DNA of 6,386 bases from Deltaproteobacteria bacterium RBG_13_61_14 (lineage in GTDB: Bacteria > RBG-13-61-14): positions 1-6,386 of the forward strand of contig MGQK01000088.1 of NCBI GenBank assembly GCA_001797815.1, in the 5' to 3' direction. The translations under genes were made by a program, and so were the position numbers. Shown piece after piece: positions 1,766-4,597 of this stretch (the first letter of the stretch is position 1; every line of letters starts with the position of its first letter). The notes beneath the pieces are model-generated. The model saw nothing but the letters and a program-made list of their open reading frames with translations. It did no database searches and was not told the DNA's origin.

Positions 1766-3163
1766 TCAGCAAGAATTCCCTGCCGGAGGATAAGGGTTTG
1801 AATCGGCAAGAAATGCGCTTGGAGGTTGCGCGGAGACGGAGAGTCGGTGGATCGGCAGCCGGACGGTGAAGGTCGCGCCCTGCCCGGGCTCGCTTTGCGC
1901 CTCGATGGCGCCCTGGTGCTCTCGGACAATGCCGTAGGAGATGCTCAGGCCCAGGCCGGTGCCCTGGCCCACCTCCTTGGTGGTAAAGAAAGGATCAAAG
2001 ATGCGCGGTAATATTTCCGGCGCAATGCCCGGGCCGTTGTCCTGGATGGCCACCGCCACCCGGTCGCCTTGGCGCGAGGTGCGCACCCGGATCCAACCCG
2101 GACCGGCCAGGGCCTGGCCGGCGTTGAGGAGCAGGTTGATGAACACCTGGCTGAGCAGCCGAGGGGAGCCCATGATCTTGGGCAGGTCGCCGTATTCCCG
2201 GATCACCTGCGCCCGGTCTTTTAATGCCGGCCTGGTCAGGGTCAACGCCGTCTCCAGGATTTCATGCAAGTCGCACTCCTGCTCTTCCTCGGCGCAGGGA
2301 TGGCTGAACTGGCGCAAATCCCGGACAATGGCGACCGCCCGCTCCACCCCCTCGGTGGTTTCCCGGACGATCATCTCGCAGTCCGCCAGGATGTAATCCA
2401 GGTCCAGATCCTGCGCCTCCGCCTCCAGCGAAGCCGCCACCTCACGCGCCGGCAAGTCCGAAGATTTCCCCAGCGCCGACATCCCGGCCCGCGCCGCTCC
2501 CAAGAACCTGGTGACCACCTCACTGTATTCCTTGATCCGGCCCAGGTTGCTCTTGGCAAAGGCCAGCGGGTTGTTGATCTCGTGGGCCATCCCCGCGCTA
2601 AGCTGCCCCAGCGAAGCCAGCTTTTCCGATTGGATCATAAGCCGCTGCATCCGGTGAAGCTCTTCAATGTAGTCCGAAAGCTCGCGCGTGCGCTCCTGGA
2701 CCTTTTCTTCCAGGCTCAGGTTCTGCGACTCCAATTCCCGCTGGTAAATCCGATTTTCCTCCTCCAGCCGGCGCTTCTCCCGCTGCAAACTGCTCTTCTC
2801 CGCCCCTCGGGCCACGGTATGGACCAGGTGATCGGGCTGGACCGGCTTCACCAGAAAATCATAAGCGCCCTCCTGGATCGCGTGAATGGCCGACTCCAGG
2901 GAGGGATCACCGGTAATCATCACCACCGGCGCCTCGATGCCCATTCCCCGCATCATTTTCAAAAACTCGATGCCGCTCCGGCCCGGCAGCAAGATGTCGG
3001 CCACGATCACCTCGAACTCTTCCCGCGCCAGCCGCTCCTCGGCCTCCTCGGCCGAGGCCGCGGTCTCGACCGCAAAGCCGGCCTTGGACAAAAAAGCCTG
3101 GAGCACCCGCGCCACCGCCGGCTCGTCATCAATGACCAGAACTCGACCCCGGCTGGTTTCCAT
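1766..3163 (-). CDS. Receiver-histidine kinase (REC-HisKA-HATPase), cytoplasmic
   Basis: A 465-residue soluble signalling kinase without membrane segments. Residues 6-120 are a receiver domain: acidic pair D12-D13, phospho-acceptor D56 (VADILLPG), T84 and K106 (FLVKP). A coiled coil spans about 122-180. The dimerisation/phosphotransfer helix carries MAHEINNPL with the phosphorylated H194. The ATPase domain has the N box (NLLLNAGQAL, N347), G1 (DNGPGI, D375), F box (IFDPFFTTK, 388-396) and G2 (GTGLGLS, 401-407). All catalytic motifs are intact. The N-box and DHp style resembles NtrB-like kinases common in deltaproteobacterial-type genomes. A 25-residue Pro/Ser-rich tail after LPIHR (440) is non-conserved in appearance. 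The ATG at 3163 lies one base after the upstream stop (TGA-C-ATG), with GAGG at 3173-3176, so translational coupling is likely. Its output regulator is not in the window; the receiver may accept phosphate from another kinase or feed back. Confidence 0.93.
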   Translation of the reverse strand: METSRGRVLVIDDEPAVARVLQAFLSKAGFAVETAASAEEAEERLAREEFEVIVADILLPGRSGIEFLKMMRGMGIEAPVVMITGDPSLESAIHAIQEGAYDFLVKPVQPDHLVHTVARGAEKSSLQREKRRLEEENRIYQRELESQNLSLEEKVQERTRELSDYIEELHRMQRLMIQSEKLASLGQLSAGMAHEINNPLAFAKSNLGRIKEYSEVVTRFLGAARAGMSALGKSSDLPAREVAASLEAEAQDLDLDYILADCEMIVRETTEGVERAVAIVRDLRQFSHPCAEEEQECDLHEILETALTLTRPALKDRAQVIREYGDLPKIMGSPRLLSQVFINLLLNAGQALAGPGWIRVRTSRQGDRVAVAIQDNGPGIAPEILPRIFDPFFTTKEVGQGTGLGLSISYGIVREHQGAIEAQSEPGQGATFTVRLPIHRLSVSAQPPSAFLADSNPYPPAGNSC

Positions 3164-3164
3164 G

Positions 3165-4586
3165 TCAGGCCGCCTCGGCCCGCCCTTCCACCTCCGGCGT
3201 TTCCGGCCGGGTCAGCCTTTCCTTGGCCAAGGTAAAATAGATCACCCCGCCCTGGTGCGGATGGTATTCCAGCCAAAGCCTGCCCCGAAAAGGTTCCAAA
3301 ACCCGTTGGGCCCGGGAAGAGACCGATTCGGACAGCTTCTTGACCCCGGCCTCTCTCGTGCCCTTGAGAAAAAACACCAGGCGGTCGCGGAGGTTGGCAT
3401 ACCCGATTTGCACCGTGCCCGCGGCCCGGATTCCCTCGGTCCCGGCCGCGGCGTGGATCAACTCGCGCCAGAGCCGCTCCATCGGAGCGGACGGCAGCCA
3501 CAAGGTGGGCAAGGGGCTCATAAAGCTCAGCCGGATCCCTTCCTGCTCCAGGCTCGGGGCCATCTTCCAGATCAGCTCCCGCAGGTTCACTTGCTCCACC
3601 GGGTCCTCTCCTTCCACCAGCTTGAATTCTTTTTCGATCTCCAAAAGCTGGGACAGCGCCTTCTCCGACTCGCGCAGCAGCCGGCGCAGCCGGCCCTGGT
3701 CTTCCGGCGCCAGACTTTCCCCCACCCGCTGCTCCAGGACCCGCGACATCTGCGCCAGATGCCGGATCAGAGGCTTCAAGGCGGACAGGGCCTGGCCCCA
3801 TTCCTTTTGCTCTTGCTCGCTCCTTTGCTCTTTTTCCCGAAACGCCTTCCGCCAGCGGCGCGTCCCGTCCGACACGCGCCGCCGAAACACGCTGTTCAGC
3901 CGGGACAACTGCACCTTGTGCCACTTCAGCTCTTTGGCCAGTCCTTCCAGCGTCCGGGAAATCGTCTCCCACTCGTCCTCGCTCTCCAGGGGCCGATGGA
4001 CCGGAGGGATCACCTCCGACACTTCCCGCGCGCGCCGAGAGAGCTGGCGCAAGGATTCCGCCCGCCGCCAGCCCAGGATCATCACCAGCACCAACCCGCA
4101 ACCCGCCGCCAGTAACCATGACCCCAGCTCCCCCAGACCTCCCTCGCGGAGCGCGGCCGGACCGCGGCTGACCCACAACCCGGCCTGCAAGAGATCTCCC
4201 GGCGCAGGGCCGGTCAATTGGACATCCACCAGGCGGGCGTCGAGTTCCCGGCAATAACGAGAGTTTATCCCCGTCAGCTTCGGCGGCGGGCAGCCGGCGC
4301 CCTCGGCTAAAGCCAGGGACCGATACCAGGTCACGTCCACCCGGTTTTCCTCGCGGCGGAGGCGAAGGTAAGCCACGCGATCATAGGCGTGATAGATGCC
4401 CTCGGCCAGACCGGGCGCCGACCCCCCTGCTTTCAACTCCTCCAGCAACGCCAACCCGGACCGCCGTGCCTCGGCTTCCTCTTGCTGCAGCCGCGCGCGC
4501 CACGAGCCCAGCCCGGCCGCGGCCAGCGCCAACACCAGGATGAAACCTTGGCCCCAGGCCAGCCGGGCCATCCAATTCCTTGTCAT
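3165..4586 (-). CDS. Membrane sensor pseudo-histidine kinase (degenerate catalytic core)
   Basis: A 473-residue protein starting at the ATG at 4586, which has AAGGAG five bases upstream; a GTG six bases earlier (4592) overlaps that site and is rejected. Membrane helices are at about residues 9-29 and 151-173, enclosing a probable periplasmic sensor of about 120 residues with two cysteines (C99 and C112). A HAMP-like linker (about 172-221, with EDEW), a charged coiled coil (about 222-265) and two DHp-like helices (about 266-325) follow. The C-terminal part (about 335-455) has the order of a kinase ATPase domain: VNLRELIWKMAPSLEQEGI, then RLWLEYHPHQGGVIYFTLAKE-like end strands. However, the H-box has no His-Glu pair or PL, the N-box asparagines are gone (WRELIHAAAG) and neither G box is present (VFFLKGTREAG stands in for G1). 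I infer a pseudokinase that senses and modulates the coupled downstream kinase. A divergent non-kinase sensor is the alternative. Confidence 0.75.
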   Translation of the reverse strand: MTRNWMARLAWGQGFILVLALAAAGLGSWRARLQQEEAEARRSGLALLEELKAGGSAPGLAEGIYHAYDRVAYLRLRREENRVDVTWYRSLALAEGAGCPPPKLTGINSRYCRELDARLVDVQLTGPAPGDLLQAGLWVSRGPAALREGGLGELGSWLLAAGCGLVLVMILGWRRAESLRQLSRRAREVSEVIPPVHRPLESEDEWETISRTLEGLAKELKWHKVQLSRLNSVFRRRVSDGTRRWRKAFREKEQRSEQEQKEWGQALSALKPLIRHLAQMSRVLEQRVGESLAPEDQGRLRRLLRESEKALSQLLEIEKEFKLVEGEDPVEQVNLRELIWKMAPSLEQEGIRLSFMSPLPTLWLPSAPMERLWRELIHAAAGTEGIRAAGTVQIGYANLRDRLVFFLKGTREAGVKKLSESVSSRAQRVLEPFRGRLWLEYHPHQGGVIYFTLAKERLTRPETPEVEGRAEAA

Positions 4587-4591
4587 CCGCA

Positions 4592-4597
4592 CTCCTT
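4592..4597 (-). promoter_or_regulatory. Shine-Dalgarno site that fixes the pseudokinase start
   Basis: On the minus strand AAGGAG is followed by TGCGG and then ATG at 4586-4584, an ideal five-base spacing. The alternative GTG start at 4592 would overlap this site by a base and leave no spacing, so the ATG is preferred. Confidence 0.75.

Follow-up and report, generated by a model that had tools for sequence, protein, structure and literature searches.

The window, by which we mean the whole 6,386-nucleotide stretch of DNA that was analyzed, carries two adjacent genes on its reverse strand. The upstream gene, read from an ATG at 4586 to a stop at 3165, encodes a membrane protein that we describe as a putative histidine-kinase-like pseudokinase (PK), and the downstream gene, read from an ATG at 3163 to a stop at 1766, encodes a REC-controlled histidine kinase (REC-kinase). 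A single base separates the TGA of PK from the ATG of its partner. PK has an alternative start, a GTG at 4592, but this codon overlaps AAGGAG, the ribosome-binding sequence at 4597-4592, so ATG 4586 is the likelier of the two. Divergent from the pair is lysA (4738, forward strand), followed by dapF; on the 3′ side of the pair lies non-coding DNA rich in dispersed repeats, beyond which comes an ankyrin-repeat gene in convergent orientation. The gene neighborhood in the window includes no response regulator gene adjoining the pair, and promoter and terminator scans of the window gave no result bearing on it. The end of the window, near 6387, coincides with a scaffold gap within dapF (six X residues). 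The features of the two genes are collected in Table 1.

Table 1. Features of the PK and REC-kinase genes, in window positions.
Feature	Position	Strand	Basis or remark
PK, putative membrane histidine-kinase-like pseudokinase, 473 aa	3165..4586	(-)	ORF, profiles, codon composition, fold model
Ribosome-binding sequence AAGGAG of PK	4592..4597	(-)	5 bases ahead of ATG 4586; sequence
PK transmembrane helix 1, about residues 9-27	4506..4562	(-)	hydropathy
PK predicted periplasmic domain, about residues 30-149 (~120 residues)	4140..4499	(-)	no family match
PK transmembrane helix 2, about residues 151-176	4059..4136	(-)	hydropathy
PK HAMP-like linker, about residues 176-223	3918..4061	(-)	alignment with Pfam HAMP of L026
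PK DHp-like region, about residues 257-330	3597..3818	(-)	phospho-acceptor His-Asp/Glu lost; alignment, profiles, model
PK CA-like (HATPase fold) region, about residues 331-456	3219..3596	(-)	N, G1, F, and G2 boxes lost
PK residues 410-425, 16 residues replacing ~36 of G1/F/lid/G2	3312..3359	(-)	profile alignment
REC-kinase, REC-controlled histidine kinase (REC-HisKA-HATPase), 465 aa	1766..3163	(-)	ORF, Pfam, motifs
REC domain, D56 and K106 intact	2813..3142	(-)	Pfam Response_reg E 7e-28; motifs
Helical linker, REC to DHp	2612..2812	(-)	K106 to H194 = 88 residues
HisKA (DHp), H194 in AHEINNP	2492..2611	(-)	Pfam, motifs
HATPase_c domain, all boxes intact	1850..2167	(-)	Pfam HATPase_c E 5e-28; motifs

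The layout of PK is that of a transmembrane sensor kinase, as an earlier sequence-only reading of this DNA had proposed: two transmembrane helices, a HAMP-like stretch, and a DHp-CA region were all found, and residues 144-230 align with the second transmembrane helix and HAMP of one intact kinase. Pfam returned no meaningful match for PK, even at E=10, and detected no PAS domain in it. For the periplasmic domain, no identifiable sensor fold emerged from Pfam or from the single-sequence model, which is poor there (pLDDT 52).

Several lines of evidence place the C-terminal half of PK among the histidine kinases. Searches with phmmer retrieved intact histidine kinases from several unrelated genomes, with E-values of 1e-4 to 3e-6 per genome, and their alignments to PK share one common register. 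A profile of six kinases gave PK 45.7 bits, a biased score in that the six had been picked by their similarity to PK; profiles of 186 and 217 kinases scored it at 21.5 and 19.4 bits, falling to 11.1 bits after one further round, and the best of 1000 shuffled PK sequences reached 3.8 bits. A phmmer comparison of PK with PDB sequences yielded chance matches only. An AlphaFold2 model built from the single sequence, without an alignment and hence not led by the intact relatives, reproduces, at modest confidence (pLDDT 61, pTM 0.45), a DHp-like hairpin together with strands and helices in the order typical of CA. When this model was compared with the PDB using Foldseek, all 50 of the 50 listed matches were histidine kinase structures, with E-values from 1.7e-6. 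VIA-align likewise superposed it on the CA domain of PhoQ (Z 12.4, 121 residues, 2.7 Å) and on DivL 4q20 (Z 11.2, 122 residues, 2.9 Å), coils and helical bundles that matched the N-terminal helices of PK being disregarded in the VIA list. Profiles, fold model, and PDB matches point to the DHp hairpin and CA (HATPase) fold of a HisKA-type kinase, and the C-terminal half of PK is, on these predictions, a histidine-kinase fold. An unrelated fold in this half was ruled out by the profile scores and fold matches.

Alignment with the intact relatives revealed the loss of six features from this fold: the phospho-acceptor His, N, G1, F, the lid, and G2. The H-box, SHDLKAPL in the relatives, reads SA-LKPLI in PK, so that the phospho-acceptor His is gone, and the residue at the acceptor position is not Tyr. 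The N box NLI.NA has become LIHAAAG, without its Asn, and KDNGIGI of G1 has become KGTREAG; from G1 through the F box, the lid, and GTGVGL, about 36 profile positions are covered by the 16 residues 410-425. The final CA strands, G(R/K)(L/I)W.E...G...YFTL, are retained. The sequence-only reading had reported the absence of His-Glu, the N-box Asn, and both glycine boxes; the alignment agrees and adds the F box and lid to the list. By the same alignment, PK would have neither the acceptor His and Glu/Asp nor the ATP boxes of an active kinase. A divergent yet working ATP site was ruled out, as most of the G1-to-G2 stretch is deleted, which goes beyond mere divergence. That reading had named two findings as counting against it, an unrelated C-terminal fold or intact divergent motifs, and neither was found by profiles, fold, or alignment. 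Since PK is missing its acceptor His, its ATP-binding Asn, and its lid, known chemistry makes both autokinase activity and the usual DHp phosphatase activity implausible for it.

These losses sit in an intact gene. The coding signal of PK is positive in frame throughout, degenerate region included (GC3 0.81), with a codon score per codon of 0.40 versus 0.47-0.48 for the neighbors, and neither a stop nor a frameshift interrupts its 473 codons. A wrong frame and a decayed gene were both ruled out by codon composition; as the composition is normal for coding DNA along the whole of PK, neither errors in the sequence nor obvious decay of the gene accounts for its losses. Kinase ancestry, lost catalytic residues, and an intact gene are together what characterizes a pseudokinase, as predicted here from alignment and model. 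The alignments show PK as a putatively dead kinase, with every catalytic motif lost.

The downstream partner is a soluble REC-DHp-CA protein in which Pfam found no further domains. The sequence-only reading had described a soluble REC-HisKA-HATPase gene with every motif intact one nucleotide downstream of PK, and Pfam and motif searches confirmed it: D56, T84, K106, H194, the N-box, DNGPGI, FDPFFTTK, and GTGLGL are all present. The same reading had credited REC-kinase with no sensor of its own, but this needs correcting, since REC is the input of such kinases, as in LvrB. LvrB of Leptospira is the prototype of the REC-controlled layout; REC phosphorylation is its input, whereupon the coiled coil of the linker forms and the CA domain is freed (PMC13269768). 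Its phosphate comes from the upstream kinase LvrA, which phosphorylates the REC of LvrB and so raises LvrB autokinase activity (PMC5863495; PMC13269768). A heptad-step preference of the REC-to-His linker has been reported (PMC13269768). The REC-Lys-to-DHp-His distance of 88 residues in REC-kinase fits a homologue series of 67/74/81/88/95, and such distances, taken modulo 7, fall into only two of the seven classes in 16 proteins, a small set of non-independent members drawn from this and related loci in which both marks were readable. Because the 88-residue spacing sits in this heptad series, the sequence suggests that coupling from REC to kinase has been kept. In LvrB itself, the alignment places 55 residues between K106 and H161, outside the class of 88 residues, and the register of REC-kinase relative to LvrB is thus ambiguous. 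Against the NCBIfam LvrB model NF047466, REC-kinase scored 108.3 bits, below the curated cut-off of 500, and it is therefore not an LvrB orthologue.

The arrangement of the pair was compared with that of other genomes. Among about 25 full-length REC-kinase loci from many phyla, some with cut or uninformative upstream regions, none had a degenerate kinase upstream of the REC-kinase. Where a kinase does stand upstream (L079, L080, L088, L092, L101, and others), its HisKA and HATPase_c score well in Pfam, and it is often a membrane-bound hybrid; at other loci a receiver protein or an unrelated product is encoded there. REC-kinases preceded by a sensor kinase are thus a recurring arrangement, and the apparently dead upstream member is the odd feature here. 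Two order relatives (G001 and G002) were found to have neither a relative of PK nor a close relative of REC-kinase. Upstream of lysA in G001, the pair is absent and other genes are present, which by eye resemble those for P-II and transporters; the G002 contig is readable for only about 900 bases upstream of lysA, which makes G001 the sole readable order relative at this position. No match was found when 84,980 species of GTDB r220 were scanned with six 8-residue PK patterns, a search that detects close relatives only, and the PK matches examined in 386 genomes were all intact kinases. Conserved adjacency, which the sequence-only reading had looked to in related genomes, was accordingly not found, either at the readable lysA locus of G001 or through a PK relative in G001, G002, or GTDB r220. 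The pair with its dead upstream member rests on one genome.

This distribution bears on whether PK has a function at all. It could be a recently inactivated LvrA-type kinase that is being lost, with REC-kinase driven by another kinase, as might be expected where neither PK nor the pair is conserved in the relatives examined and where intact kinases hold the same position in other genomes. Candidate drivers would also be at hand, as HATPase_c has about 30 further matches in the genome, and many of these are kinases in principle able to phosphorylate REC. A functionless relic, the chief skeptical reading, is nevertheless unlikely, we judge: six features have been lost, yet the frame stays free of stops and frameshifts, its codon signal remains normal even in the degenerate region, PK has a good start signal, and the 1-base junction to the partner gene has been kept.

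The pair resembles LvrA-LvrB in having an upstream kinase-type gene and a downstream REC-DHp-CA kinase in one operon, and REC-kinase resembles LvrB in having no other input or output domain and in keeping both the REC Asp and the DHp His. LvrA is a soluble, active double hybrid that phosphorylates LvrB, whereas PK spans the membrane and is without catalytic residues. A phosphorelay of the LvrA-LvrB type, with phosphate passing from the upstream kinase to the downstream REC, would be beyond PK, all of its catalytic motifs having apparently been lost.

Unlike PK, with its periplasmic segment, DivL of Caulobacter has PAS domains, and the DivL gene is not coupled to that of its partner kinase. That allosteric pseudokinases exist, as the sequence-only reading had noted, is borne out by DivL (PMC4211667), and FasC of group A Streptococcus has been proposed as another (PMC12675982). 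DivL binds DivK~P, a response regulator, and passes its state to CckA (PMC4211667). As predicted for PK, it has a kinase fold without kinase activity, and its proposed mode of signaling is through contact with a receiver and with a partner kinase (PMC4211667). In DivL, Tyr replaces His and weak ATP binding remains (PMC4211667), whereas PK has no aligned acceptor and its lid is deleted. A further parallel is the ChrS variant of Corynebacterium glutamicum, a pseudokinase with a frameshift in CA that boosts signaling via another kinase (PMC9491836). Like PK, it sits in the membrane and its CA domain has been destroyed, but it evolved in the laboratory, the paralogues ChrS and HrrS are close and hetero-dimerize, and no REC-kinase is involved (PMC9491836).

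FasB and FasC form a hetero-dimer from adjacent kinase genes (PMC12675982). As in the present pair, two kinase-like genes adjoin and one encodes a putative pseudokinase, the two acting together in the case of FasB-FasC (PMC12675982); unlike here, both Fas proteins have membrane-sensor N-termini and a response regulator gene lies in the operon (PMC12675982). PK might by the same token pair with REC-kinase through their DHp helices, in the manner of RetS-GacS or FasB-FasC, and modulate its autophosphorylation, for which FasBC offers a precedent among adjacent kinase genes (PMC12675982). The PK model does match the RetS/GacS structures 7n0e (Z 10.9, 176 residues, rmsd 8.6 Å) and 7z8n (Z 11.0, 200 residues, rmsd 9.2 Å), with scores no higher than those of many other kinases. 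FasC retains its DHp His, which its partner phosphorylates (PMC12675982), whereas the H-box His of PK is absent. Known hetero-dimers such as ChrS-HrrS unite related kinases, but the cores of PK and REC-kinase have no detectable pairwise similarity (E 0.54) and different nearest relatives, and for these two reasons we do not favor a DHp hetero-dimer and regard it as possible but unlikely. It is highly improbable that PK is instead a phosphotransfer station working through H276, like Spo0B or ChpT with their degenerate CA domains: H276 is predicted to lie in the first DHp-like helix, a few residues past the lost H-box, but it has no acidic neighbor or conserved context, no orthologue was found that shows it kept, and Spo0B and ChpT still have their His in place.

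We consider it the likeliest of the readings, at about even odds, that PK docks on the REC of its partner, holds the partner at the membrane, and passes on a periplasmic signal by contact. The pair would then be an LvrA-LvrB-like two-gene unit whose upstream membrane kinase lost catalysis and kept its DHp-CA shape along with its sensing parts, namely, the periplasmic domain, two transmembrane helices, and HAMP-like linker. The DHp-CA face of PK would dock on the REC of REC-kinase (or on its DHp), as DivL binds DivK~P, and would tether this soluble kinase at the membrane. REC is favored as the docking site because a receiver is what a DHp naturally docks with and because REC-kinase starts with one. 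A signal from outside could thereby reach REC-kinase through contact with PK, shifting the REC/coiled-coil switch without phosphorylation. Since PK appears catalytically dead, any phosphate used on D56 would have to come from another kinase, and the pair could combine two inputs. By analogy with the systems above, we infer that signaling would pass from neighbor to neighbor, from PK to REC-kinase.

The split system of the sequence-only reading, in which a pseudokinase senses through its periplasmic domain and controls its partner by hetero-oligomerization or direct contact, therefore stood in part: a kinase fold without motifs, encoded by a real gene one base before an intact kinase, speaks for it, whereas conserved adjacency was not found and a DHp hetero-dimer is not favored. 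The comparisons suggest that the pair is a variation on known kinase pairs in which the dead upstream member is the new part. A more specific version, that this is a pair of the LvrA-LvrB kind whose dead upstream kinase has been kept as a conformational membrane receptor, with REC as a docking port beside or instead of its role as a phosphate port, is possible but rather doubtful. Kinases under REC control are common, and the one that has been studied is activated when the kinase encoded next to it phosphorylates it; if contact signaling of the kind proposed here holds true, contact alone can suffice to drive kinases of this type. The pair would in that case also be a compact natural two-gene system for testing how histidine kinase pseudokinases signal, a question that also concerns DivL and CckA.

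Other REC-kinase loci showed further arrangements. In the same genome, L175 (G000:C21:53500-64000) comprises a kinase, a single receiver, a REC-kinase of 498 aa with all motifs, and then a membrane kinase, a cluster that forms an intact counterpart of the layout of the pair. Also in this genome, a 900-aa membrane kinase at L174 (G000:C76:42000-51000) overlaps the start of an 849-aa REC-kinase; a simple pattern for an H-box with Pro matched neither protein, perhaps only because their boxes are of the HDFNN type. In two genomes of one family (L073 and L074), the REC-kinase follows two genes, one for a small soluble HATPase_c protein whose boxes are intact and one for a receiver protein, and this three-gene arrangement is conserved.

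Two families of intergenic repeats were also noted in the window. At 1130-1400 lies a dispersed repeat in which the 21-base unit TGGGGTGGTTGCCGCGCAGAA occurs in tandem, in 4.2 copies; it has 41 matches in the genome, about two dozen of them at 83-95% identity across 110-270 bases. A second, short family, at 1540-1765, is marked by the phrases TTCACCCTTCATCC, TTCGTGTC.. / GCCTTAGTGCCTTAGTGG and has 49 genome matches.
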